The notes beneath the pieces were generated by a model. It did no database searches and had not been told where the DNA came from. It saw only the letters and a list, made by a program, of their open reading frames with translations. A stretch of 64,000 bases of DNA from Bacteroides sp. (GTDB lineage Bacteria > Bacteroidota > Bacteroidia > Bacteroidales > Bacteroidaceae). A program made the position numbers and the translations under genes. Shown in pieces: positions 36,415 through 49,578 of the stretch; the stretch's first letter is position 1, and each line of letters begins with the position of its first letter. The stretch is taken from contig JAFUNS010000032.1 of assembly GCA_017472925.1 (NCBI GenBank), positions 1-64,000 on the forward strand, in the 5' to 3' direction.

Positions 36415-37716
36415 TCAAGGAAATACAATGCGGAAACGGGTGATGCCATCCTCGTAAGTACGGAGTGAGAAGCTGCATCCATGTTTCATCAACACTTCGC
36501 GGATAAAGATAAGGCCGATACCCTGGCCATTGGGCTTGGTAGAGAAGAAAGGAGTGAACAATTTGGTTTCCACTTCTTTGGAGATGCCCCGACCAGTGTC
36601 AGCCACCTCGAGCATGACAGGAGAAGCAGACGTACGAAGGGTAATGACACCGTTCTTCTCGATACTCTCCACGGAATTCTTCACCATGTTTATCAGCACT
36701 TGTTCAAAGAGCGAGGTATCTATCTTCACCCACGGATTTTCTTCGCACAAATCCATACGAAGGTCTACTTGATGGTCTTGACAGATGTTTTCCAGGAATC
36801 TTTCGCAAGCCGATATACGATCGTTCAAGCGCACTTCTTCCAACTGAGGTTCGGGAATCTTTACCACATCGGCAAAACGGGTGATGAACCGACTTAGGCT
36901 ATATCCCCTTTCGATGCACACCTTCATCACTTCGCGCAGGTCGTCCGTATCGTCCATCGTTTGAAGGGCATCGTCCACGGTATCAAGGGTAGACGTAATA
37001 CCCGCCACGGAGTTGTTCACTTCATGGGCAATCATGCGGATTACCTTTTCGTAAGCTTTCTTTTCGGCCTTCATCACTTCGGATGTCAGGCTTTCTATCA
37101 AGAAGAACGGATGGGCAAAGCCACGGTCAACAAACGAGAGTCGGGAACATCGGTATATATGCGAATCGCTCAAACGGATGGTTTCTGTGGTATCCTTGGG
37201 CAAACGGCTCATTTCTTCGGCCAAAGGTGTTTTCAAATCCTCCATTCCTTTATTCAACATATCTTCTTCCGTATCCACTTCCAGGAATTTCAAGGCGGCC
37301 TTGTTGGCCATGGAAACCTTCCCGTCGAAAGTCAGGATAACCACCCCCATAGGCGATACGCTGATCAGCAAATCGAGGAAATGGTTTTGTTCGCGAAGGC
37401 GGAGGCGTTCTTCCTTCAGTTGTTGCATCATGCGATTGAAGATATCCACAATGCGGTCGGCTTCCAGTTGGCCCACCGACTTCAATCGACTGCTGAAATC
37501 CTGCTCGCGAAGCAAGTCCATCCCGTTGGCAATGGTATCGAGCGGTTTCACCACCTTGTGATAGAAATAGACCAAATATATGAGACTGAGGGTAATGATG
37601 CCTTCCACCAGATAAAACTTCCACCCTACTTCCTTGATGGGCATGATGAGAAACATCAGCCCCCACGCAACCATCAGGAGCAAAGCCAACAGCAGGAAGA
37701 AGATTCTCAGTTTCAT
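36415..37716 (-). CDS. NtrB-like sensor histidine kinase
   Basis: A 433-residue sensor kinase paired with the adjacent NtrC-type regulator. Two membrane helices (about 4-26 and 34-52) are joined by only about seven residues (MPIKEVGWK), so there is practically no periplasmic domain. A HAMP-like segment (about 53-105) and a PAS domain (about 112-200, SPMGVVILTFDGKVSMANKA) follow, then HisKA with H231 in MIAHEVNNSVAG and HATPase (NMVKNSVESI, VADTGRGISKEV, FFSTKPNGQGIGLI). The stimulus must be sensed in the membrane or cytoplasm. It is last in a tolC / response regulator / kinase operon. Confidence 0.92.
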   Translation of the reverse strand: MKLRIFFLLLALLLMVAWGLMFLIMPIKEVGWKFYLVEGIITLSLIYLVYFYHKVVKPLDTIANGMDLLREQDFSSRLKSVGQLEADRIVDIFNRMMQQLKEERLRLREQNHFLDLLISVSPMGVVILTFDGKVSMANKAALKFLEVDTEEDMLNKGMEDLKTPLAEEMSRLPKDTTETIRLSDSHIYRCSRLSFVDRGFAHPFFLIESLTSEVMKAEKKAYEKVIRMIAHEVNNSVAGITSTLDTVDDALQTMDDTDDLREVMKVCIERGYSLSRFITRFADVVKIPEPQLEEVRLNDRISACERFLENICQDHQVDLRMDLCEENPWVKIDTSLFEQVLINMVKNSVESIEKNGVITLRTSASPVMLEVADTGRGISKEVETKLFTPFFSTKPNGQGIGLIFIREVLMKHGCSFSLRTYEDGITRFRIVFP

Positions 37717-37722
37717 ATCCTA

Positions 37723-39075
37723 TCAAGATTTGGGCGTAACAATATTGTATTTCTCCAACCTACGATAGAGGGCACCCCGACTAAGTCCCAACGAGAGAGC
37801 CACCTTCGACATGTTTCCGTTGTATTGCTCGATGGCCTGAATAATGCGTTGCTTGTCCACTTCCTCCAACGTAAGCCCGTTCAGATTTCCTATCGCCGAT
37901 ACCTCCATGACCGATGTATTCTGTGCCTTGAAGTCGTCCACATCGAGCAGTTCCTTTCCGCTGACCAGCAAGGTCCTTTCCACCAGATTCTTCAACTCGC
38001 GGATATTGCCCGGGAAAGGCAAGCGTTGCAAGTAATCCATGGCCGCTTGTGTAAAGTCCACTGCCTGAAGACCGTTCGCTTGACAAAGCTTGTCGGCAAA
38101 GTGGCGTACCAGCAACGGGATGTCTTCTTTACGTTCGCGCAAGGCGGGTAAATGCACGGTAATCAAGTTAATACGATAGAACAAATCCTCGCGGAAGGTA
38201 CGTTCCTGCACCCGTTGGGCAAGGTCTACATTCGTGGCACTCACCACACGGATATCCACCTTCCGGGGACGACTATCGCCTAATACTTCGAAAGTCTGTT
38301 CCTGCAATACCCGGAGGAGCTTTACCTGACAACTCAAATCCAGGTCGCCTATTTCGTCAAGGAAGATAGTTCCTTTATCCGCCATTTCAAAACGTCCTAC
38401 CCTATCGGCCGACGCATCGGTAAAGGCTCCCTTCTTATGCCCGAACATCTCGCTTTCAAACAAGGTTTGCGAAATACCGCCCAAATTCACCTTCACGAAA
38501 GGTTTCTTGGCTCTGGGGCTGTTCTTATGAAGGGCTTCGGCTATCAGTTCCTTGCCCGTACCGCTTTCGCCCGTCACAAGTACCGAAGCATTGGTTTTCG
38601 ATATGCGCTTGATGGTTTCCAGCACATCCATCAACGCCTTGCTTTTCCCGATGATGTGACTACGGTCGAATCCCTCTTCGTCCACCTCTTTCGGTGCTTC
38701 CTTCCTGGCATTCAGCTCGAGGGCCGTTTCTATGCGTTGCATTAAGGCAGCATTGTTCCAGGGTTTGGTCACAAAGTCGAAAGCACCGGCCTGCATCCCC
38801 TTTACGGCCAAATCGATGCTTCCCCAAGCGGTCATCAGGATAACAGGCGCATCGGGCTGGAAGATCTTGACCTGTTTCAAAAGGGTGATGCCTTCGTCTC
38901 CACTCGTGGTGAGGGAGAAGTTCATGTCCATCAAGATTAGTTCAGGACACACGGAGCGCACTACGGCCATTGCTTCCTTGGGGGTGGCAACTGCCTGAAC
39001 TTCATACTTGGCCCGTTTCAGCATAAAGCTGAGGGAAGTACGGATAGCGCTATCGTCGTCTATAATTAGAATCAT
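37723..39075 (-). CDS. NtrC-family sigma-54-dependent response regulator
   Basis: A 450-residue transcription activator. The receiver domain (1-120) has the phospho-acceptor D50 (LILMDMNF), acidic pair DDD (6-8) and K104. The AAA+ domain (about 138-365) has Walker A GESGTGKE (169-176), the sigma-54-contact loop GAFTDA (216-221, a Gly-to-Asp variant of GAFTGA), and Walker B GTIFLDEIGDLDL. The C-terminal Fis-type helix-turn-helix (YNGNMSKVALSLGLSRGALY) binds DNA. It lies 18 bases after tolC and 6 before the kinase. Its likely targets are the two sigma-54 promoters at 40606-40621 and 49465-49480. Confidence 0.95.
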   Translation of the reverse strand: MILIIDDDSAIRTSLSFMLKRAKYEVQAVATPKEAMAVVRSVCPELILMDMNFSLTTSGDEGITLLKQVKIFQPDAPVILMTAWGSIDLAVKGMQAGAFDFVTKPWNNAALMQRIETALELNARKEAPKEVDEEGFDRSHIIGKSKALMDVLETIKRISKTNASVLVTGESGTGKELIAEALHKNSPRAKKPFVKVNLGGISQTLFESEMFGHKKGAFTDASADRVGRFEMADKGTIFLDEIGDLDLSCQVKLLRVLQEQTFEVLGDSRPRKVDIRVVSATNVDLAQRVQERTFREDLFYRINLITVHLPALRERKEDIPLLVRHFADKLCQANGLQAVDFTQAAMDYLQRLPFPGNIRELKNLVERTLLVSGKELLDVDDFKAQNTSVMEVSAIGNLNGLTLEEVDKQRIIQAIEQYNGNMSKVALSLGLSRGALYRRLEKYNIVTPKS

Positions 39076-40605: not shown

Positions 40606-40621
40606 TGCAAAAGTCATGCCA
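40606..40621 (-). promoter_or_regulatory. Sigma-54 promoter (-24/-12) for tolC-RR-HK
   Basis: On the minus strand TGGCATGACTTTTGCA matches TGGCAYRNNNNTTGCW, with GG and GC at -24 and -12. It lies 24 bases upstream of the tolC start codon. Upstream at fixed distances are the 14-bp element and the TGTCC dyad. Confidence 0.85.
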
Positions 40622-40633
40622 AACACAACCACA

Positions 40634-40647
40634 ATTGATTATCAACA
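40634..40647 (-). promoter_or_regulatory. Conserved 14-bp TGTTGATAATCAAT element, IHF-like
   Basis: The element lies 12 bases upstream of the -24 box and is identical in sequence and offset at the second sigma-54 promoter (49493-49506). On the + strand TATCAACAACTTA fits the IHF consensus WATCAANNNNTTR. Confidence 0.65.
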
Positions 40648-40665
40648 ACTTACTACATTTACAAC

Positions 40666-40681
40666 TGTCCGATAATGGACA
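40666..40681. promoter_or_regulatory. Candidate activator (enhancer) site TGTCC-N6-GGACA
   Basis: The dyad TGTCCGATAATGGACA lies 44 bases upstream of the -24 box. The same half-sites, N6 spacing and distance recur at 49526-49541. It is the likely binding site of the NtrC-type regulator. Confidence 0.65.
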
Positions 40682-40956
40682 CCTCTTTCATTTTCGAACA
40701 CTATAAGATGGTTAGGATGACAAGAAGGAGAAAAACATCCTCTTGTTTTGAAAAAACATCACGGCGTTTAGCAAAGAAGAAAACGTCGTTTTCCGGCCGA
40801 CAACACGTCGTTTTCCTTCATCGAAAACATCCACTTCCGTAGCCTGTAGTTCGTAGCTTATCTTCGTACAACAAAAATACAATCTCACAATAGCGGTTGT
40901 CAAGTATTTCGGGATTTATTTTTTGTGATAGGTGAAAAAAATCCGAAGTGATGTGA

Positions 40957-40978
40957 GTTGCGGGTTGCGGGTTGCGTT
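40957..40978. repeat. GTTGCGG/GCAACCC tandem array
   Basis: Three GTTGCGG(G) units ending GTTGCGTTTA. Related arrays occur at 41135-41155, 41285-41312, 41757-41797 and 44454-44473, some in the opposite orientation. Confidence 0.75.
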
Positions 40979-40983
40979 TAATT

Positions 40984-41067
40984 TGTCATCCTGAGCGTAG
41001 TGAAGGATCTGAATACACGAACGTAGATGTAAACAGATCCTTCGTCACTTCGTTCCTCAGGATGACA
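40984..41067. repeat. GTCATCCTGAG palindromic element, intact copy A
   Basis: The left arm starts TGTCATCCTGAGCGTAGTGA and continues GGATCTG. The right arm is its near-perfect complement, CAGATCCTTCGTCACTTCG to TCAGGATGACA. The whole is about 84 bases and could form a long cruciform or RNA hairpin. Confidence 0.85.
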
Positions 41068-41134
41068 AGATAAGTAGAGTTCCTATGGATGATAAAGGTT
41101 GCGCCTTTTAGAGGGTGTGGTTGCGCCCCCAGAA

Positions 41135-41155
41135 ACGCAACCCGCAACCCGCAAC
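41135..41155. repeat. GCAACCC tandem array
   Basis: Three tandem GCAACCC units, opposite in orientation to the array at 40957, so the palindromic element at 40984 lies between inverted arrays. Confidence 0.7.
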
Positions 41156-41272
41156 TTTTTTCGATTTTCCTTAGGCGCTCGTGCGTGCGTATGCGTACCT
41201 TATATATATAAAATTAAAATAAAAAAAAAGAATATACCTATAGGGTTGCGCTTACGGACACCCAAAAACATC

Positions 41273-41661
41273 CTAAAAAACAAAAACGCAACCGGGTTGC
41301 GGGTTGCGTTTTTGGGTTGAGAAGCAGTATGGAAAGAGTCGTTTGAAAGGTTCCGCTTTTGGAGAAGGAATGGATTGGATAATGCGGAAAAGTTGTTCTG
41401 TATCAGCCACATCTGTCAATCTCATTTTTCCATCTTCAGCACGTAATTTCAACTGGTGACAATTTGTCACCGGTTCAAATCCTTCTTCTTTCAAGCGCTG
41501 TTTCAGTTTGTTCCAATATTTTCTGGCTGTCTGATAATCTTTACTTTCAGCAAGAATATTTACCACATCAACTATAGAAAAATACCATTTTTCCTGTTCA
41601 TCGTCCCAAACGGTACGCACTTTCTTTTCTTCAAATAGTTTTATCGATTCTTTTTTTTCAT
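41273..41661 (-). pseudogene. Truncated BRO-N (phage antirepressor-like) gene
   Basis: The translated core reads SIKLFEEKKVRTVWDDEQEK and FSIVDVVNILAESKDYQTAR, a BRO-N domain of the kind found in Bacteroidales mobile elements. Two lesions are seen. At the 5' end the expected ATG (41661) is followed by eight A residues, giving ATG AAA AAA AAG and a quick stop; nine A would restore the frame. The only in-frame ATG upstream, at 41695, sits in the -7 promoter box. At the 3' end homology stops after PSPKAEPFKR and runs into a GCAACCC repeat; intact relatives are about twice as long. Confidence 0.75.
41285..41312. repeat. GCAACC/GGTTGC inverted array at the broken end of the BRO gene
   Basis: ACGCAACCGGGTTGCGGGTTGCGTT contains the unit in both orientations; the BRO reading frame ends inside it. 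Confidence 0.7.
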
Positions 41662-41692
41662 GATATGATATCTCTAAATGTAAAATTATATA

Positions 41693-41700
41693 CAAAGATA
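41693..41700 (-). promoter_or_regulatory. -7 box (TATCTTTG) of the BRO remnant
   Basis: TATCTTTG on the minus strand predicts a start near 41686, 25 bases ahead of the frameshifted ATG at 41661. Confidence 0.55.
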
Positions 41701-41771
41701 AGTGTTTTTATCGATAAAACGAAGCATTTGCTTTTACATTTATATCCGCAAAAAATGCGGGTTGCCATTTC

Positions 41772-41819
41772 TCAAAAACGCAACCCGCAACCCGCAACTT
41801 TCATTGAAAATCACTTTTT
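41772..41819. repeat. 48-bp direct repeat, left copy (contains GCAACCC array)
   Basis: The 48 bases starting TCAAAAACGCAACCCGCAAC and ending TGAAAATCACTTTTT are identical to 44448-44495 in the same orientation. This copy ends 23 bases from the stop of the promoter-distal permease gene. Confidence 0.9.
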
Positions 41820-41842
41820 CATTTCTAATCCGCCATCACTCG

Positions 41843-43090
41843 TTATTCATCATGCAAGGCCTCGGCCGGATGTACCTTCATGGCCTTACGGGCCGGGATG
41901 CTGACACCAATGGTTATCATCAAGCCTATGAACAGGAAGCTGATGAGGGCACAAAGCAGCAGGCGGTCGACTTCGAGGGTAGTACCGTTCCGTAGGGCAT
42001 TCAATTCGGCATAAGCCAAATTGAAGTCGATGAGCAATGCAAGGGGTGTCACCAAAAGCAAGATTCCCCACCCTTCACTGAGCAGACGGGTGAACATCAT
42101 GCGATTAGTGGCTCCATGTGCTTTGTGCAAGGCTATTTCACTCTTGCGTTGTTGGGTACGGAACCAGAAGGTACCAAGCAAGCCAAGGAATATATTCACT
42201 AACAAGAAAGTCATTCCTGTAACCTCATTACGGATTTTGTTGGTTTGGTTTTGTTGGAAAGCACGACGTTTGTCCTTGAACGAATAGATGTTGCTGATAA
42301 AGATATTCCCTATGCGGTATTGGCTTTCGCTATCAGCCTTGATGTGGGCAATGAAATCCTTGTCGTGTTCGGGGCGGACACGCACGCAAAGCTCTTGCGT
42401 GCGGCTGACATGTTCCATCGGGAACTTATCCACAATTGAAAAGCTATAATCGGCCTGTTCATAATCCGAGAAACGGACAGAGTTCAATACCGCGCCCAAG
42501 ATGTGTGTACGGGTAGTGTCGCCATACAGATAAAATGACTTGCCTATCAGTTCGCTTGGCTTGCCATCCAAGTACTTGCAAAGGCTTTCGGAAAGCAGGA
42601 ACTTGCCATCTTCCACCATCTGCGCCAACTGCTCGGGCGTTTCGCCGTTCACACCCGTGTAGCGGAACACACGAAGGAAGTCGGGGGTCACGATACGCTG
42701 GAGAATGTTGCCTCCCAACTGATTACCACCTACCGGCTGGATGGTAGTAACCGAATTACTGATATTATAAGGGTAGGCATTATTGGAAAGGCTCACCGCC
42801 TCTATGTCGGGGCGATGCTGAAGACGGTCAATCAGTTCGAGTACATCGCGTTGAAGTTCCTCAACCGATTGGTAAATCACAAAGTCGGGACTCTTATCGT
42901 TGAGCAATCCCATCTCGATGTGATAAGTATGACTAATGTCGAAACCTCGCGGCTCTATGTAGGTGGCAGTGGCGCAATAAAGGCTATCCACGATGTACCA
43001 CATCACCACACTGACCAGCAACAGCTCAATGCTCAGCCACAAGTTGCTCCGCCATTCGTTCTTTATTTGCGTAAATAGTTTTTTGTTCAT
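41843..43090 (-). CDS. MacB/FtsX-type ABC permease, type 2 of pair A
   Basis: A 415-residue inner-membrane permease. The N-terminal helix (SIELLLVSVVMWYIVDSLY, about 17-35) is followed by a large periplasmic MacB_PCD domain (about 40-275). Three C-terminal FtsX helices follow (TGMTFLLVNIFLGLLGTFWF, then GWGILLLVTPLALLIDF and LICALISFLFIGLMITIGVS), ending VHPAEALHDE. It resembles the permease at 45404-46717 (ending LPADALRDE) more than its neighbour, so the two are paralogues. No ATPase domain is present, so it must borrow the ATPase at 44692. Confidence 0.9.
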   Translation of the reverse strand: MNKKLFTQIKNEWRSNLWLSIELLLVSVVMWYIVDSLYCATATYIEPRGFDISHTYHIEMGLLNDKSPDFVIYQSVEELQRDVLELIDRLQHRPDIEAVSLSNNAYPYNISNSVTTIQPVGGNQLGGNILQRIVTPDFLRVFRYTGVNGETPEQLAQMVEDGKFLLSESLCKYLDGKPSELIGKSFYLYGDTTRTHILGAVLNSVRFSDYEQADYSFSIVDKFPMEHVSRTQELCVRVRPEHDKDFIAHIKADSESQYRIGNIFISNIYSFKDKRRAFQQNQTNKIRNEVTGMTFLLVNIFLGLLGTFWFRTQQRKSEIALHKAHGATNRMMFTRLLSEGWGILLLVTPLALLIDFNLAYAELNALRNGTTLEVDRLLLCALISFLFIGLMITIGVSIPARKAMKVHPAEALHDE

Positions 43091-43101
43091 AGCTCAGTGA
43101 T

Positions 43102-44397
43102 TTAATGCAATCTTCCCCCCAACGCATTTACAATGCCGATGCGCGAAGCACGCCAAGCGGGGAAACCGGAAGACAATAAGTTCAATACAAAACAGAAGAA
43201 AAGTGCCCAGAGGAATGTGTCGGTCTGTAACAGGATGGAAGCATCCACTTCGGGCAGATTGAGCGTTTGGCTATAGGGTTGTGCAAAGAGGAAATGATTG
43301 CCGGTATAAGCAAACACCACACTTAACAGCAATCCCAATACACCGGCTATCAGCGTAATGATGAAGTTCTCGGCTATAATTTGCATCATCAATTCTGATC
43401 GGGTACTACCGAAAGCCCGACGCACTCCAATCTCACTGACACGTTGCCGCAAACGACTTTGCGTCATGCTGCTAATATTGATAGCGGGTACAAGGAGCAG
43501 AATCAAATAGATGATGAACTGCTGCCTGCGATGAGCCGCTACATCCGGCTCCCAGTTGGCAGCCATGCCAAGGGTGTTCTTCTCTTGGTCCCAGGGGCGG
43601 TTGCGTGAAATGATTTTCCACCCGTTTTCGCTAATGATGTTGTTGTATTCCTCCAATCGGCGATCGCATTCTTGGCGAATGGTAGGAAAGTCATCACGAT
43701 TTTTGGCAAGAATGGTGCAGCTCATCATCCCCATGTGTCCGTCGTTCCATCGGTCGTTATCCAATCCTCCGGCAGAGTAAGGAATCCATACCTGTCCGTA
43801 GGCCGAATCGGCAAGGGTAGATACATCCTTTACTACTCCGCATACCTTGTAGGGTGCATGGTTCAGCAGAAACTCCTTGCCCACAATGCCTTGGGTGGTG
43901 CCAAAGAGTTGGCGCGCTACGGTTTCGCATACCACCGCTACCGGAATGGCGGCATCGAACGTAGCCTTGTCGAAGGGTTTTCCGTCCATGAAACGGAAAT
44001 CGAACACTTGCCAAAACACATCATCCGTCTGTCGAAGATCGAATGTAGTAGTGGGTTGCCCCGGGAGGTTGAAAGGTGTGGCAAATGTACAAATGCCATA
44101 AATGGTCACCGCCTCAGGGGTTCTTAATGATTGATAGAGTTCTTTAGCCGTCAGGGCACTCATCGGGCCGTTACTGCTACCATCGCCCCATCCGCTGTTT
44201 GTAATACTTGCAAAACGTACATGCAGGAAACGGTCCCGATTACTTTCCGGAGCAAACGGGGCAGTTTTCACCTGTTGTATCATCACCACCAACATGATGA
44301 GGAAGATGGCAAGGGCCGTTCCTACCACATTGATGGCACTGATGAGCGGTGATTGGCGCAACTGCACCAAAGCTTGTTGAATGGTTTTCTTTATCAT
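43102..44397 (-). CDS. MacB/FtsX-type ABC permease, type 1 of pair A
   Basis: A 431-residue ABC permease. The start MIKKTIQQALVQLRQS at 44397 is chosen; the frame's first 31 codons run into the 48-bp repeat. Helix 1 is VVGTALAIFLIMLVVMI, the periplasmic part runs about 45-280, and the FtsX helices follow (YLILLLVPAINISSMTQSRL with the characteristic GVRRAFGSTRSEL motif). It resembles the permease at 46724-48025. Together with the type 2 gene 11 bases downstream it forms a heterodimeric permease pair. Confidence 0.9.
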   Translation of the reverse strand: MIKKTIQQALVQLRQSPLISAINVVGTALAIFLIMLVVMIQQVKTAPFAPESNRDRFLHVRFASITNSGWGDGSSNGPMSALTAKELYQSLRTPEAVTIYGICTFATPFNLPGQPTTTFDLRQTDDVFWQVFDFRFMDGKPFDKATFDAAIPVAVVCETVARQLFGTTQGIVGKEFLLNHAPYKVCGVVKDVSTLADSAYGQVWIPYSAGGLDNDRWNDGHMGMMSCTILAKNRDDFPTIRQECDRRLEEYNNIISENGWKIISRNRPWDQEKNTLGMAANWEPDVAAHRRQQFIIYLILLLVPAINISSMTQSRLRQRVSEIGVRRAFGSTRSELMMQIIAENFIITLIAGVLGLLLSVVFAYTGNHFLFAQPYSQTLNLPEVDASILLQTDTFLWALFFCFVLNLLSSGFPAWRASRIGIVNALGGRLH

Positions 44398-44447
44398 AAT
44401 AAATCTGTTATCAATTATAAATGAGAGCCTTAAGATGCGGCAGCTTA

Positions 44448-44495
44448 TCAAAAACGCAACCCGCAACCCGCAACTTTCATTGAAAATCACTTTTT
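44448..44495. repeat. 48-bp direct repeat, right copy
   Basis: Identical to 41772-41819 over 48 bases and in the same orientation. It lies 50 bases upstream of the pair A type 1 start, so the two copies bracket pair A exactly. Confidence 0.9.
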
Positions 44496-44532
44496 ATCCC
44501 ATCTTGTCGTCCTATGGAACTTTCCTTTTCCT

Positions 44533-44616
44533 TGTCATCCTGAGCAAAGCGAAGGATCTGTTTACATCCACGTTTATGTCTTCAGATCCTTCGTCACTTC
44601 GTTCCTCAGGATGACA
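44533..44616. repeat. GTCATCCTGAG palindromic element, intact copy B
   Basis: Left arm TGTCATCCTGAGCAAAGCGA then AGGATCTG; right arm CAGATCCTTCGTCACTTCG to CAGGATGACA. It lies between the ATPase gene and the downstream permease pair A, inside the putative operon. Confidence 0.85.
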
Positions 44617-44691
44617 TGGAAGAAGGGATCAGGATGACTTAAAGAGGGGACCAAGATGAATTGACCAAGAGCCAAGACGGGTACTAACGAC

Positions 44692-45366
44692 TTATTGTAC
44701 CTGACGTCCATCAAAGAAGCGGACGGTTCTTGATGTCTGCTTGGCCTGGTCTTCGTTGTGAGTTACCATCACGATGGTGCGTCCGTCTTCCTTGTTGAGT
44801 TTATGGAGGAGTTCCATCACTTCGGCTCCCATCTTCGAGTCGAGGTTACCGGTAGGTTCGTCGGCCAGGATGATTTCGGGATTACCCACAATGGCGCGGG
44901 CGATGGCTACACGCTGGCATTGTCCACCCGAAAGTTGGGTAGGCATGTGGCGCATACGGTGGCTGAGGCCTACTCTTTCAAGTACGCTCTTGGCCAAGGC
45001 GGTACGTTCCGAGGCCGACATCTTGCGATACAGCAACGGAAGTTCTACATTATCGAGTACATTGAGTGAGTTGATGAGGTGGAAACTTTGGAAAACAAAG
45101 CCGAGTGTCTTGTTACGGAAAGCAGCCAGTTCCTTGTCGCCCATCCCCTCGGTAGTGGTTCCGTTGATGGTGATGGTACCCGAAGTAGGTGTATCGAGCA
45201 GCCCCATGATGTTGAGTAGCGTGGATTTTCCACATCCCGAAGGCCCCATAATGCTGAGGAATTCGCCTTTTTGCACTTCCAAGTTCACGTTTTCGAGGGC
45301 TTGGGTTTCAATTTCGTCTGTACGGTAAATCTTGTTGATACCTTTTAATTCAATCATTGTAGTCAT
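44692..45366 (-). CDS. MacB-type ABC transporter ATP-binding protein
   Basis: A 224-residue ATPase of the LolD/MacB class. Walker A is [14 protein letters not shown], the Q-loop [11 protein letters not shown], the signature [19 protein letters not shown] and Walker [17 protein letters not shown]; the H-loop His is in [10 protein letters not shown]. The start [15 protein letters not shown] at 45366 is preferred over codons further upstream. It is the only ATPase among four permeases, so it may serve both pairs, or the second pair has lost or shares its own. It drives mechanotransmission rather than substrate transport through the bilayer in known MacB systems. Confidence 0.94.
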
Positions 45367-45403
45367 AATATTCTTTGTTTTTATTGTTATTATTCTTTTT
45401 TGT

Positions 45404-46717
45404 TTATTCATCGCGTAAAGCATCAGCCGGAAGGACTTTCGTAGCTCTTATTACAGGGATAAGCGTACCCACCCATGCAATGACAAGCAAGGCCAAATAA
45501 GTAATGACGCTCACCATAAGGAAGTGCGGATTCTCTTCCATAAACCAGTTGACGGACATAAACTCCATATCGCCCGTACATTGAAACTTGGCCATATTGT
45601 CCTGCATGGCATAATGAACCAAGATGATAAGCGATACCACAAAAGCAGCCGTTATCAGAAGGGTAGATTCGGTCAAGAAACGAGAGGTGATGCCCTTTTT
45701 GGTGGCTCCCAAGCTACGCATCAGCCCTATTTCCTGCCGGCGGGCATTGCATCGAATCCAGAAAGTGCCCACCATGCCCAAGAAGATGCACAATAGGGCA
45801 AAAGATGCCAAAGCAAGCTTCAGACGGATAACATTGTATGTACCATTCTGCTTGGCCCAAGTGGTGCGTTGTTTCTCGAAAGACAACAAGCGGTCAAAGA
45901 AGAAGTTGGCCATAGCCATATTAGGTGCCACTTCTTTTTCGAAGCGTTCTACAAAGGCGTCTTCGTCCACCCCTTCCTTCAAGTTGAAGGCAATCATGTA
46001 TGTCCAGTGCATATAGGGGCTTATACGCACCTTATTATTTATGCTTATTATCAATGGATAGATAGGTTCAAAATCGCGATGCTTGTAATCCTTGAATACA
46101 GCAGCTATTTCATGCGCCCTATCTCTATAATCATACACCTTCTTCCCTACTGCATCCGTAGTACCGAACATGTGGCGGGCAAAATTTTCGGATACATAAA
46201 TCAAATTCCGTCCACCGGCATCTTGAGGCACTTCTATATCACCTCCCGTCAAGGCATTTTTCATGCCATACGTCTTGAAGATGTTTCCACCACCCGCATT
46301 ATTGAAGGTGTATTCTTGTGTGCTAACGTGTTTTCTGTCATCCGATTTGAGGGTATCGGCATAATAGGCGGCACCGTTCCAGCTTCCTCCGTTGGGGAAC
46401 GAACTGTTTTGTACCAATAAGGCACTTTCCACCTCAGGGCAATCGCGCACCAGGCGAAGCATGTTGTCTATAGCCATTTTTTGTTGCTCTTTGGTTACGG
46501 TCGTATCGCGCATGCCATGTTTCTCTCCATAAGCTCCAAAGCGAAGTACATATCGGCCGTCTTCTTCGTATCCCTTGGGGGTGAAGTGGTTGACGGTGAG
46601 TACATATACGGGGTCAATAACCGTCCACAGAAAAAATCCTGCAATGATGAGTTCCAATAGAATCCAGCCATTCTGTCGGCGCTGGTTCCATACTTGTTTG
46701 ATGATATTCTTTAGCAT
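45404..46717 (-). CDS. MacB/FtsX-type ABC permease, type 2 of pair B
   Basis: A 437-residue permease with one N-terminal helix (ILLELIIAGFFLWTVIDPVYV, about 19-38), a periplasmic domain (about 45-290) and three C-terminal helices ending VIRATKVLPADALRDE. The characteristic IGLMRSLGATKKGITSRFL stretch follows the second helix. It is a paralogue of 41843-43090. It lies 6 bases after the type 1 gene and 37 before the ATPase, whose start is just downstream. Confidence 0.9.
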   Translation of the reverse strand: MLKNIIKQVWNQRRQNGWILLELIIAGFFLWTVIDPVYVLTVNHFTPKGYEEDGRYVLRFGAYGEKHGMRDTTVTKEQQKMAIDNMLRLVRDCPEVESALLVQNSSFPNGGSWNGAAYYADTLKSDDRKHVSTQEYTFNNAGGGNIFKTYGMKNALTGGDIEVPQDAGGRNLIYVSENFARHMFGTTDAVGKKVYDYRDRAHEIAAVFKDYKHRDFEPIYPLIISINNKVRISPYMHWTYMIAFNLKEGVDEDAFVERFEKEVAPNMAMANFFFDRLLSFEKQRTTWAKQNGTYNVIRLKLALASFALLCIFLGMVGTFWIRCNARRQEIGLMRSLGATKKGITSRFLTESTLLITAAFVVSLIILVHYAMQDNMAKFQCTGDMEFMSVNWFMEENPHFLMVSVITYLALLVIAWVGTLIPVIRATKVLPADALRDE

Positions 46718-46723
46718 AATAGT

Positions 46724-48025
46724 TTACCTCTTTGAATGAATGGAATAAATAATGGGGTGACGAAGCGCTACAATAGTAGGTACCAAGGCCGAAATAAGAT
46801 TCAGCAATACACATACACCAAGCACCGTAAGGAACAAGGGCAGGTTGATGAGCATTTCCAAATGAATGGCCATAGGATAATCGCGATTAAAATACATATC
46901 TTCATTGAATATGCTCAAGACCAACTCACCACCCATACAAACAAGGGTGTAAGCCAAGGCCAAGCCCAACAAGCCTCCCACGAGTGTAAGCAAAAGGTTT
47001 TCGGTAAGAACCTGATGAATAATACTACGATTGGTGGCTCCGTAGGCTTTGCGCACGCCCAATTCGCTCATACGTTCGTCCATCCGCGAGGATATCATGC
47101 CACACAAGTTCAAGGCAGGGATAAACAGGAAAGCCAAAAGCATGTAGAGGATACCCCGTATGGCTGAAGCAATATCGGGCTCACCGGCACAAGAGGTACG
47201 GAAATAATTTTCCCACCACGTATCGGGCTGACCGAACATTTTATTGTCATACTTATCTTGCAAGCTGTGTTGCTTGACCACTTCCTGCACTTCTGTACGA
47301 AGGGCTTCCACATCGTCATCCTTGGACAGGAGATAAAGCTGGATGTTTCCGGTCAGGCCAGTATCATGAGCTTCCGGGCTCAACAATCCTCCCCAATACA
47401 AGGGCAAGTACACTTCGCCCATGGTGACACTGGTAGCGGTAGAGGCATCCTTCACCACCCCGCATACCTGTACATCCTTCCCATCAAGGCTGATGAACCG
47501 GCCTACCACATCGGTTTGGGCGAAGATACGTTTGGCCATACTTTCGGAAAGTATCGCTTTGGGAAGTGTTGAGGCCACATCGGCCTCGGTAAACGGATGT
47601 CCGCTGACAAAACGGAAGGTAAACACCTCCCAAAAATCCTGGTTTACCAATTGTACGATAGGCGAATATTGTTCGTTGGTTTCGGGAATAACTATCGTTA
47701 CGCCCAAAAAATCGCCTATATTGGAAGCTGCGGCCATCTTGTCCAAATGTGGCAGATTCTTCAATAAATCAAAGATACGGGCATTCACTCCACTATTGCA
47801 AGAATAATTGTTGTCATTTTCCTTGTTCACCGCACTCATGCTATTGACAACGAGCGTCCGGTTACGGTTATACTCCGGATAGATGGGGGCAAACTTTACA
47901 TAATAAATAATGAACAGAATCAGTGTAAAGGCCACGGACAACCCCGTACCCGCCACATAAATGGTGGTAAAGAGGCGGTTCTGTTTCATCATAGCCCACG
48001 CCTGTTTAAAAGATGTCTTTATCAT
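46724..48025 (-). CDS. MacB/FtsX-type ABC permease, type 1 of pair B
   Basis: A 433-residue permease starting KTSFKQAWAMMKQNRLFTT with helix 1 (VAGTGLSVAFTLILFIIYYV). The periplasmic domain covers about 45-285. The last three helices include YMLLAFLFIPALNLCGMI and the GVRKAYGATNRSI motif shared with its pair A relative. The C-terminus IVALRHPIIYSIHSKR lacks the usual PxxALR-type ending. It lies 29 bases after the adaptor gene. Confidence 0.9.
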   Translation of the reverse strand: MIKTSFKQAWAMMKQNRLFTTIYVAGTGLSVAFTLILFIIYYVKFAPIYPEYNRNRTLVVNSMSAVNKENDNNYSCNSGVNARIFDLLKNLPHLDKMAAASNIGDFLGVTIVIPETNEQYSPIVQLVNQDFWEVFTFRFVSGHPFTEADVASTLPKAILSESMAKRIFAQTDVVGRFISLDGKDVQVCGVVKDASTATSVTMGEVYLPLYWGGLLSPEAHDTGLTGNIQLYLLSKDDDVEALRTEVQEVVKQHSLQDKYDNKMFGQPDTWWENYFRTSCAGEPDIASAIRGILYMLLAFLFIPALNLCGMISSRMDERMSELGVRKAYGATNRSIIHQVLTENLLLTLVGGLLGLALAYTLVCMGGELVLSIFNEDMYFNRDYPMAIHLEMLINLPLFLTVLGVCVLLNLISALVPTIVALRHPIIYSIHSKR

Positions 48026-48054
48026 AATTGAGAACGAATAATGTGGTAATTTCT

Positions 48055-49302
48055 TTATTTCACTTTTAGTTTCTTCTTGTTGCGGAACTCGCTCATGTCG
48101 CTCACCACTACCTGGTCACCCGATTGAAGACCACTCACCACCTCAACGTATTCAAAATTGGAGTCGCCCAACTTCACTTTACGCTTCACCAATTCGTTGT
48201 CGCCATTGAGCACAAAGAGTTCGTAATCGCCACGACCTACATAATACGAGGCATTGGCAATGCGCATCACATCCTCCTTTACGGCATTCATTACATAAAC
48301 ATCGGTTTTGAGTCCTGAACGAAGGCGCTTGTGGTTATCTTCGGCCAACTGGACACTGAAGGAGATGACTCCATTCTTAGACAAGGGAGTTACACTACTC
48401 ACCGTTCCTTCCAGTTTTTCGCTGCCTATCTTCACGATGACCTTTCCGCCGGCCATCACTCTATCGCCGTAGGTATCGGCAATCTCGCCTTCTACCTTGA
48501 AGTGGCTCAAATCGGACACGATGGCCACTTGCGAACCTTGCGAGACTTGTGCACCCACCTGATTGTTGATATAGGTAAGGATAGCCTTGCGGGGCGAACG
48601 GATTTGTGCATCTTCGAGGGTACGTTTCATCTCGGCCAATCCTTTGGAAAAGATATTGAATTCCAATTCCTTCACCTTCATATCGGCGGCCTTCACTTGC
48701 TTTTCGTTTTCGTATTGTTGGCGAAGTTGTTCCAGTTCCAATTTTCCGGTGTTATAGGCCAGTTCGGCTTGGCGCACCTTGTCGGTAGTTCCGCTTCCCA
48801 GACTGTCGAGGTATCGCTCGTTACGCAGTTCCACCTCCATCCGGTTGAGCTTCATGGCACTCACCTTGACATTCATTTCAAGGTTGCTCAAATAGGTGTG
48901 GTTGTTGAGGCGCAATTGTTCCAATTGGTAACGACGCATCTGCTCCTCGTCGAGCAATTTCTTGTACTCGGTTTCTGTACTCTGAAGATCGAGCTTCAAC
49001 AAAGGGGTACCTACATCCACGCTATCGCCTCCCTTGCCATAAACTTCCACAATACGGGTACTGACGGGTGAGTTGATGATTTCTTCGAAAGCGGGCACCA
49101 CTTCGCCCGAGGCACTCACGCTGACCTCTATCGTCCCCTTATCGACGGTAGAAAGGACGAGGTCCTTTTTCTTCACACTACTTTGCATCCACGAGACCAG
49201 TACGGCCATGCATACCACCGATACAATTCCGATGGCTCCATACTTCATTAATTTCTTGTTGCGCTCCTTTTGGCGCACTTCTTTTGGTATTTCTCTGTCC
49301 AT
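48055..49302 (-). CDS. MacA-like RND/ABC periplasmic adaptor protein
   Basis: A 415-residue membrane-fusion protein. A single helix (LMKYGAIGIVSVVCMAVLVS, about 18-38) is followed by the lipoyl half-motifs (VSASGEVVPAFEEIINSPV and VYGKGGDSVDVGTPLLKLD), a long hairpin (about 105-200), the second lipoyl part (ILTYINNQVGAQVSQGSQVA) and a beta-barrel/MPD domain ending SDMSEFRNKKKLKVK. It is the first gene of the exporter operon, transcribed from the sigma-54 promoter at 49465. A palindromic repeat lies in its leader. Confidence 0.94.
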   Translation of the reverse strand: MDREIPKEVRQKERNKKLMKYGAIGIVSVVCMAVLVSWMQSSVKKKDLVLSTVDKGTIEVSVSASGEVVPAFEEIINSPVSTRIVEVYGKGGDSVDVGTPLLKLDLQSTETEYKKLLDEEQMRRYQLEQLRLNNHTYLSNLEMNVKVSAMKLNRMEVELRNERYLDSLGSGTTDKVRQAELAYNTGKLELEQLRQQYENEKQVKAADMKVKELEFNIFSKGLAEMKRTLEDAQIRSPRKAILTYINNQVGAQVSQGSQVAIVSDLSHFKVEGEIADTYGDRVMAGGKVIVKIGSEKLEGTVSSVTPLSKNGVISFSVQLAEDNHKRLRSGLKTDVYVMNAVKEDVMRIANASYYVGRGDYELFVLNGDNELVKRKVKLGDSNFEYVEVVSGLQSGDQVVVSDMSEFRNKKKLKVK

Positions 49303-49342
49303 ATTATATATTTTTGTTTCTTCTTTATTGATGCCCCCGTTA

Positions 49343-49436
49343 TGTCATCCTGAACGTAGTGAAGGATCTCTATACGTCCATACTATAAACTATGTTTGTC
49401 TTCAGATCCTTCGTCTCTTCGTTCCTCAGGATGACA
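49343..49436. repeat. GTCATCCTGAG palindromic element, intact copy C
   Basis: Left arm TGTCATCCTGAACGTAGTGA then AGGATCT, right arm CAGATCCTTCGTCTCTTCG to TCAGGATGACA. It occupies the leader between the sigma-54 promoter and the MacA-like gene. Confidence 0.85.
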
Positions 49437-49464
49437 TTTTAAGAGACGAAAACATATTATCTAT

Positions 49465-49480
49465 AGCAAAGACCGTGCCA
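49465..49480 (-). promoter_or_regulatory. Sigma-54 promoter (-24/-12) for the exporter operon
   Basis: On the minus strand TGGCACGGTCTTTGCT is a consensus match (TGGCACG-N4-TTGCT). It stands 162 bases upstream of the MacA-like start, with a palindromic element in the leader. Confidence 0.88.
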
Positions 49481-49492
49481 AACTATTAACTT

Positions 49493-49506
49493 ATTGATTA
49501 TCAACA
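49493..49506 (-). promoter_or_regulatory. Conserved 14-bp TGTTGATAATCAAT element, second copy
   Basis: Identical to 40634-40647 and at the same 12-base distance from the -24 box. The IHF consensus half TATCAA is present but its TTR half is weaker than in the first copy. Confidence 0.6.
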
Positions 49507-49522
49507 TAAAGACAAAAAGAAA

Positions 49523-49544
49523 GGGTGTCCATTTTCGGACACCC
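49523..49544. promoter_or_regulatory. TGTCC-N6-GGACA dyad, dual activator site and pepD terminator
   Basis: GGGTGTCC-N6-GGACACCC contains the TGTCC-N6-GGACA dyad (49526-49541), 45 bases upstream of the -24 box, mirroring 40666-40681. Read on the minus strand it is also a hairpin followed by TTTCTTTTT, 35 bases after the pepD stop, and so may end pepD. Confidence 0.6.
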
Positions 49545-49578
49545 TGTTCGGTTATGTTGTTCGGAATGAACAGTTTTC

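Follow-up and report, generated by a model that had tools for sequence, protein, structure and literature searches.

What controls two minus-strand operons of a Bacteroides sp. assembly (GCA_017472925.1), the one encoding a TolC-family protein, a response regulator and a histidine kinase and the other a MacA-like exporter, whose promoters resemble each other closely? The question is raised by the first 64,000 nucleotides of contig JAFUNS010000032.1, read on the forward strand and hereafter called the window, in which each of these operons (operon 1 and operon 2, respectively) begins at a consensus sigma-54 site. The reading proposed here, with a probability of about 0.86, is that both promoters would form one regulon unit under the NtrC-type response regulator of operon 1 (37723-39075), with IHF-type DNA bending and positive autoregulation.

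The elements described in the initial annotation are present in the window. The core TGGCA-N6-TTGC is exact at both sigma-54 sites, before tolC-regulator-kinase (TGGCATGACTTTTGC, 40607-40621, minus strand) and before the MacA-like exporter operon (TGGCACGGTCTTTGC, 49466-49480, minus strand); the 14-mer TGTTGATAATCAAT occurs exactly twice, once per promoter (at operon 2 in 49493-49506, minus strand), in both cases with the 12-base gap to the -24 box that had been reported; and exact copies of the dyad TGTCC-N6-GGACA stand above TGGCA at distances of 44 and 45 bases, the only exact ones in the whole assembly of 2.8 Mb. The housekeeping promoter of Bacteroides has the -33/-7 consensus TTTG...TAnnTTTG, and a misreading of such a promoter was rejected by eye for both sites, the TTTG pair being far too close and the second TTTG having no preceding TAnn. 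The dyad count was discarded as a measure of enrichment, two exact copies in 2.8 Mb standing against about 2.7 by chance (2.8 Mb/4^10), and the window is barely enriched in TGGCA-N6-TTGC when one mismatch is allowed (23 vs. 16.8 expected). Because the number of dyads alone about equals chance, the case rests on the arrangement of the elements and its conservation, and it is the arrangement, not the count, that is far beyond chance. Thus, in 201 genomes of the family, where each pattern was also run reversed as a control, dyad-N{36,56}-TTGGCAN6TTGC was found at 17 sites in 13 genomes and never in reverse, with a gap of 41-44 bases at all 17 strict sites although 36-56 were permitted; a broader composite (TGTYCRN4YGRACA, a gap of 26-56 and the sigma-54 site) was found in 25 genomes, again with no reversed match. 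The regulator of the window, scored as present at E <= 1e-120, is encoded in 24 of these 25 genomes vs. 49 of the 201 overall (Fisher p 1.9e-16, uncorrected for shared ancestry), which is the co-occurrence that the initial annotation had proposed to look for; a lack of rpoN had been named there as an objection, and the assembly contains one rpoN match, rpoN being matched in 29 of the 30 genomes searched.

The anatomy of the promoters was read from 95 sequences, namely the window and 94 loci (80 picked by the regulator and 14 by the composite pattern), which together hold 78 composites and none in reverse, followed by genes for TolC (44), HlyD (21), permease/ATPase homologues (10) or none of these (3), so that 75 of the 78 stand within 700 bp before homologues of the exporter components. 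The removal of two duplicates and of a composite with a gap of 35 in one locus (L127), rejected as a chance match because no exporter or regulator homologue was found just downstream, left 75 promoters. The shared dyad proved conserved in them, its full form being a 16-bp operator, TGTYCG-N4-CGRACA, longer than first described and present in tandem in 32 of the 75. The gaps between the dyads and TTGGCA fall at 30, 41-44, 53-54 and 61-65, plus the single 35, so that the dyads share approximately the same face of the helix (a phase vector of 0.76 for a 10.5-bp turn, over 109 gaps). Two layouts were distinguished: in the first (60 promoters) the near dyad lies at 41-44, with a second copy at 61-65 in 17 of them, and in the second, which belongs to one lineage (15 promoters, including those of Bacteroides clarus and B. 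gallinarum), the dyads lie at 30 and 53-54. The invariance of GG in the 60 aligned promoters is circular, as the scan required GG.

At the loci of the regulator itself the arrangement recurs. At least 583 relatives of the regulator were confirmed, the best 80 loci, 67-99% identical, being kept; among the matches listed, the nearest relatives belong to Bacteroidaceae, including Phocaeicola vulgatus at 80%, and the orthologous composite is present in the laboratory commensal P. vulgatus ATCC 8482 (L071). The composite, each part being allowed a single mismatch, was found directly before TolC-regulator in 41 of the 74 loci that have at least 300 bp of upstream DNA (6 of the 80 have less), vs. none of the 74 in the reversed control, and by gene order in 41 of the 60 loci in which TolC adjoins the regulator vs. 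none of the 14 in which it does not. In several of the remaining loci the TolC and regulator genes trail the exporter genes in one run and the composite precedes HlyD; altogether it heads a co-directional gene run including the regulator in 51 of the 80 loci, with intergenic gaps of up to 427 bp. The arrangement expected for autoregulation is, therefore, conserved, and what is a single run elsewhere seems to be split into two operons in the window. That the two promoters are alike only through a recent local duplication of one into the other might be supposed from the identical 14-mer and the same offsets inside one window, as well as from the relatives with single-promoter runs holding both gene sets; this is very improbable, however, because the spacer bases between the elements differ in the window and the same parts, with diverged spacers, precede both operons in other genera, and a shared origin would in any case leave standing the selection seen in those genera.

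The strongest in-silico ground for assigning the dyad to the adjoining regulator is the pairing of recognition-helix classes with dyad classes. The helix of the window class, R[AGQP][AST]LYRR, was found in 77 of the 80 relatives, the other 3 not being read. Two paralogous classes were followed in 30 loci each: class C5, with the helix R[YF][AST]LYRK, goes with a TGTGCG-type dyad in 8/8 readable promoters (14 of the 30 loci having a sigma-54 site in the 700 bp upstream, 8 with a readable palindrome), and class C21, with the helix RQTLYNK, goes with a TGTCYA-N5-type dyad in 7/7 (8 of the 30 loci having a sigma-54 site, 7 with a readable palindrome; one without a readable enhancer-binding protein and one truncated), where three of the dyads start with CGTCCA. 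The palindrome filter was not blind: the ends had to be TG or CA, and TGT/ACA had to occur at least once. A single further pairing joins the helix RPTFYAK to a TGTAAAG dyad. The residues LYRK alone do not set the class, because some distant regulators of the window class share them with C5. Three of these classes are present in the window's own assembly, in which PF00158 has seven matches, four of them strong (>220 bits, in regulator-sized frames) and three at 20-32 bits. The three other strong matches, in full-length regulators, and the fact that sigma-54 activators can in principle work in trans could suggest that the promoters answer to another of the genome's enhancer-binding proteins, the adjoining regulator not being their activator and autoregulation being absent; such an assignment is only slightly less improbable than the duplication, considering that the other classes adjoin dyads of their own, in all the readable cases just given, whereas the composite follows the window's regulator across genomes. 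Sequence and conservation show the sites, their spacing and phase, the co-occurrence with the regulator, the location in front of the regulator's own gene run and the helix-dyad class pairing. In one locus of a C5 regulator (L043, 12683-17561), the C5 TolC/HlyD genes are followed by two adjacent genes for FtsX-type permeases (794 and 791 aa) that agree fully in their first 50 residues and so may stem from a recent tandem duplication (gene names by eye).

The second shared element, the 14-mer, corresponds to the upstream half of an IHF-type element together with its TTGAT arm. The IHF consensus WATCARN4TTR, that of E. coli, is exact in 23 of the 60 promoters of the first layout, always 18 bases above TTGGCA, and the best-kept positions are the A at -14 (59/60) and the TTA at -8 to -6. 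In the family scan, WATCARN4TTRN5TTGGCAN6TTGC was found at 28 sites in 24 of the 201 genomes and never in reverse. The promoters of this kind include ones with TGTGCG-N4-CGCACA, TGTCYA-N5-TRGACA and TGTAAAG-type dyads, which precede TolC, FtsX-permease or ABC-ATPase genes (by eye), while one with dyads of the window class (L163) precedes an open reading frame not recognised as an exporter. Thus, the IHF-type element may be regarded as a common chassis and the dyad as the regulator-specific address, and the proposal that the 14-mer is a bending-protein site stands as far as it is half of a putative site of this kind but not as one specific to this activator. It is unlikely, though distinctly less so than a duplication or another activator, that the 14-mer is instead part of the operator of a second regulator or an AT-rich polymerase contact with no bending protein: the exact consensus in only 23/60 promoters, its derivation from E. 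coli and the six HU/IHF-family (PF00216) matches in the assembly, all of them candidates only, leave room for this, while the coincidence of the best-conserved positions with WATCARN4TTR, the single offset of the exact matches and the presence of the element before promoters with other dyads argue for an IHF-type site.

The mechanism may be pictured as follows. The membrane histidine kinase would phosphorylate the regulator, which would bind the TGTYCG-N4-CGRACA dyads on approximately the same side of the DNA, some 43 bp upstream of the -24 box; a protein of the IHF/HU type would bend the DNA at the intervening WATCARN4TTR site; and the AAA+ ring of the regulator would open the sigma-54 polymerase at both promoters, raising together tolC-regulator-kinase (positive autoregulation) and the HlyD/MacB/FtsX exporter, with a basal promoter needed to start the autoregulatory loop. 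Phosphorylation, binding, bending and activation, as well as the exported substrate, we infer from the protein families. With this qualification, one activator and one bending protein, with autoregulation by the NtrC-type regulator of the first operon, as initially proposed, appear well supported in silico by conservation, co-occurrence and helix-dyad pairing.

Several observations weigh against this regulon. The composite is absent from the scanned stretch in 33 of the 74 regulator loci (19 of the 60 with adjacent TolC and all 14 others), for which fused operons or contig ends account in some cases, not in all, and the strict composite is missing from 25 of the 49 regulator-bearing genomes; in reverse, one of the 152 genomes without a detected regulator (G092, an 81% complete assembly) carries the composite. 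Co-directional runs in which the gaps reach 427 bp do not prove one transcript, and L065, a near-identical metagenome-assembled genome, has about 4.2 kb of other genes between TolC and the regulator. In the window itself, the distal dyads are degenerate and the IHF-type site of operon 1 is imperfect, its frame (40628-40640) matching in the 5' half but not in the 3' TTR, and in the layout with dyads at 30 and 53-54 no IHF-type site was found in any of the 15 promoters. The window's regulator, lastly, has GAFTDA, not GAFTGA, in its loop, as do most of the 80 relatives (KGAFTDA 72, GAFTGA 2, GSFTDA 1, not read 5); PMC4641369 lists GAFTDA among the variants that would keep activity. The insert of L065 (436-4623, corresponding to 39095/39100 of the window) comprises two large genes on the opposite strand (by eye, transglutaminase/DUF3857-like) and, if not an artefact of the assembly, would uncouple regulator and promoter.

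The dyad of operon 2 has a further property. It is the core of a hairpin, AGGGTGTCCGAAAATGGACACCCT (49522-49545; 10 pairs, 6 of them G-C), followed by the T-run TTCTTTTT, its folding energy is -18.8 kcal/mol (z -4.28), and the dyad lies 37 bp after the stop of a co-directional gene for an M20 peptidase, of which it is probably also the intrinsic terminator; terminator-like sites in the 9.7-kb region number 16 vs. 9.3 expected. For the dyad of operon 1, a stem extension and a T-run were looked for on the minus strand and neither was found (z -2.72); this dyad is 591 bp away from the closest end of a predicted upstream gene and is listed as a weak 6-pair terminator-like match on the plus strand. 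In the whole set of promoters, the palindrome is extended by at least four Watson-Crick pairs in 24 of 75 proximal dyads vs. 1 of 32 distal ones, the 24 having twelve different flank pairs, a 3' T-run in 19 and a 5' A-run in 8. With G-T pairs allowed, an extension of at least four pairs is seen in 25 of the 41 promoters that have the end of a co-directional gene no more than 110 bp away vs. none of the 17 with a divergent one (p 6e-6), and by Watson-Crick pairs only in 19/41 close co-directional, 5/14 distant co-directional, 0/17 divergent and 0/3 without a neighbour, the cut-offs (4 pairs, 110 bp, divergent only) having been chosen post hoc; when similar flanks are collapsed, 7/22 co-directional vs. 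0/13 divergent remain (p 0.03). A first look with a codon-usage gene caller had given terminator-like dyads in 22/45 promoters within 200 bp of a co-directional gene vs. 4/27 others (p 0.003), this caller having replaced longest-open-reading-frame calls (21/44 close co-directional vs. 6/31 others), which were dropped for spurious overlaps. The 5/14 extended dyads with a distant co-directional gene, and the 8/24 in which the A-run occurs also or instead, count against a pure neighbour effect. Taken together, this speaks well, though not conclusively, for co-option of the operator as a terminator where one is needed.

The same extensions and T-runs, with the well-folding dyad at 49526 that scores as a terminator, could mean that the dyads are nothing more than intrinsic terminators of the genes upstream and lie near sigma-54 promoters by coincidence. 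This is about as improbable as the duplication: the 12 core bases are conserved, needlessly for a terminator, the positions are phase-locked to the -24 box, the dyad is doubled in many promoters, its core is kept beside divergent upstream genes without any extension, and its sequence tracks the regulator class. It is more tenable, as a tentative idea held at somewhat less than even odds, that one palindrome has two jobs, as an enhancer in DNA and a terminator in RNA, that binding of the regulator could alter upstream read-through, and that the case belongs to a family of parallel exporter switches, each with a private operator on a common IHF/sigma-54 chassis.

In the NtrC/ZraSR scheme, two-component systems activate sigma-54 promoters, with upstream dyads, IHF and a -24/-12 site. 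Here, similarly, a regulator with a receiver, an AAA+ domain and a Fis-type helix-turn-helix stands beside a kinase, dyads lie above -24/-12 and an IHF-type site lies between; unlike that scheme, the window has GAFTDA, an operator of its own, a compact layout (the nearest dyad 30-44 bp above TTGGCA) and a TolC-regulator-kinase operon driven together with an ABC exporter. The regulator passes the cut-offs for PF00072, PF00158 and PF02954, with scores below the equivalog cut-offs for AtoC (414/714 bits), NtrC (TIGR01818; 398/559) and ZraR (330/760). All four kinases of the assembly that adjoin strong sigma-54 activators (window 36415-37716; L042, L043 and L044) have two N-terminal hydrophobic segments separated by a loop of some 5-10 residues, both by eye. 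In BceRS-BceAB peptide sensing of Firmicutes, a two-helix kinase with hardly any loop is linked to an FtsX-type ABC transporter. Here, too, the kinase has, by eye, two segments with a tiny loop and is linked to an FtsX-type ABC transporter, whereas the output is NtrC/sigma-54, not OmpR-type, and the exporter is MacB-like and tripartite; the kinase loop may thus recall Bce-type transporter-coupled sensing, as a lead only. With MacAB-TolC and darobactin-type (DarC/DarD) exporters the system shares an adaptor, an ATPase, MacB-core permeases and TolC, but it has four half-size permeases and stays under the NCBIfam cut-offs for MacB, DarC, DarD and LolD (MacB cut-off 966 bits; best permease 64, ATPase 228), while the Pfam domain MacB_PCD passes its cut-off in two of the operon-2 permeases. 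PMC12316311 states that ZraR autoregulates its own operon and predicted in 2025 the sigma-54 control of FtsX-type ABC (COG0577/COG1136) transporters in Bacteroidia, in agreement with the sigma-54 promoters before such genes found here; in its main text, IHF, UAS (upstream activating sequence), TolC, palindrom* and inverted repeat have 0 mentions, and, as far as accessible, an operator, an activator assignment or a terminator overlap for these transporters was not found there. Among the open-licence papers listed, neither a description of this operator, its activator or the operator/terminator overlap, nor enhancer sites or an activator-promoter assignment for sigma-54 in Bacteroidaceae were found; the accessible text of PMC3162934 has 0 mentions of Bacteroid*, and in that of PMC10434189 no usable link to the window's regulator was found. 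What would be new, going by these sources, is a sigma-54 switch under a predicted autoregulated NtrC-type activator, distinguished by an operator class of its own, a compact phase-locked layout and a probable operator/terminator overlap.

Coordinates of the promoter elements and genes of the two operons in the window
Feature	Position	Strand	Remark
Histidine kinase, operon 1	36415..37716	-	HAMP/HATPase; HisKA under Pfam cut-off
NtrC-type response regulator, operon 1, 450 aa	37723..39075	-	proposed activator; receiver, sigma-54 AAA+ with GAFTDA, HTH_8
TolC-family outer membrane efflux protein, operon 1, 495 aa	39094..40581	-	PF02321
Sigma-54 promoter of operon 1, TTGGCATGACTTTTGC	40607..40622	-	25 bp 5' of tolC ATG
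14-mer TGTTGATAATCAAT, operon 1	40634..40647	-	upstream half of IHF-type site
Predicted activator dyad (UAS) TGTCCATTATCGGACA, operon 1	40666..40681	.	
Degenerate distal dyad TGTTCGAAAATGAAAG, operon 1	40685..40700	-	19 bp register upstream; by eye
FtsX-type permease, operon 2	41843..43090	-	final gene
MacB-core/FtsX permease, operon 2	43102..44397	-	
ABC ATPase (LolD/MacB-like), operon 2	44692..45423	-	
FtsX-type permease, operon 2	45404..46717	-	
MacB-core/FtsX permease, operon 2	46724..48025	-	
HlyD/MacA-type periplasmic adaptor, operon 2, 415 aa	48055..49302	-	
Sigma-54 promoter of operon 2, TTGGCACGGTCTTTGC	49466..49481	-	
IHF-type site AATCAATAAGTTA, operon 2	49487..49499	-	exact WATCARN4TTR
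Predicted intrinsic terminator on operon-2 dyad, AGGGTGTCCGAAAATGGACACCCT then TTCTTTTT	49514..49545	-	
Predicted activator dyad (UAS) TGTCCGAAAATGGACA, operon 2	49526..49541	.	
Degenerate distal dyad, operon 2	49545..49560	-	right arm CGAACA intact; by eye

The assembly with the window is 79.7% complete. Between operon 2 and operon 1 stands, alone, an open reading frame of 140 aa with a Bro-N domain (41273-41695) and a weak coding score, at the end of which lies a strong hairpin (41281-41314). In the stretch from the operon-2 promoter to the start of HlyD, an inverted repeat resembling a miniature transposable element or repetitive extragenic palindrome (MITE/REP-like, by eye; arm GATCCTTCACTACGTTCAGGATGACA) occupies 49340-49440; the arm recurs upstream of operon 1 (40984-41009) and, with up to 2 mismatches, is found at 33 places in the assembly. 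The distance from the composite to the HlyD match is 179 bp in the window vs. about 40-100 bp in other loci. In the same assembly, exact TTGGCAN5TTTGC sites upstream of the dnaK and clpB starts (C68:32138 and C49:59349; by eye) suggest that these heat-shock genes are under sigma-54, and, according to PMC12316311, B. thetaiotaomicron GrpE and GroES depend on sigma-54.

The overlap of operator and terminator offers a testable case of one sequence selected as DNA and as RNA; if it is true, a change in read-through could insulate the switch when off or couple the neighbours when on. The conserved operator, its likely activator, the spacing rules and at least three operator classes would make such regulons predictable from sequence in the gut Bacteroidales. 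The exporters are pump-like, and their inducer would bear on antimicrobial handling or peptide export by gut commensals.

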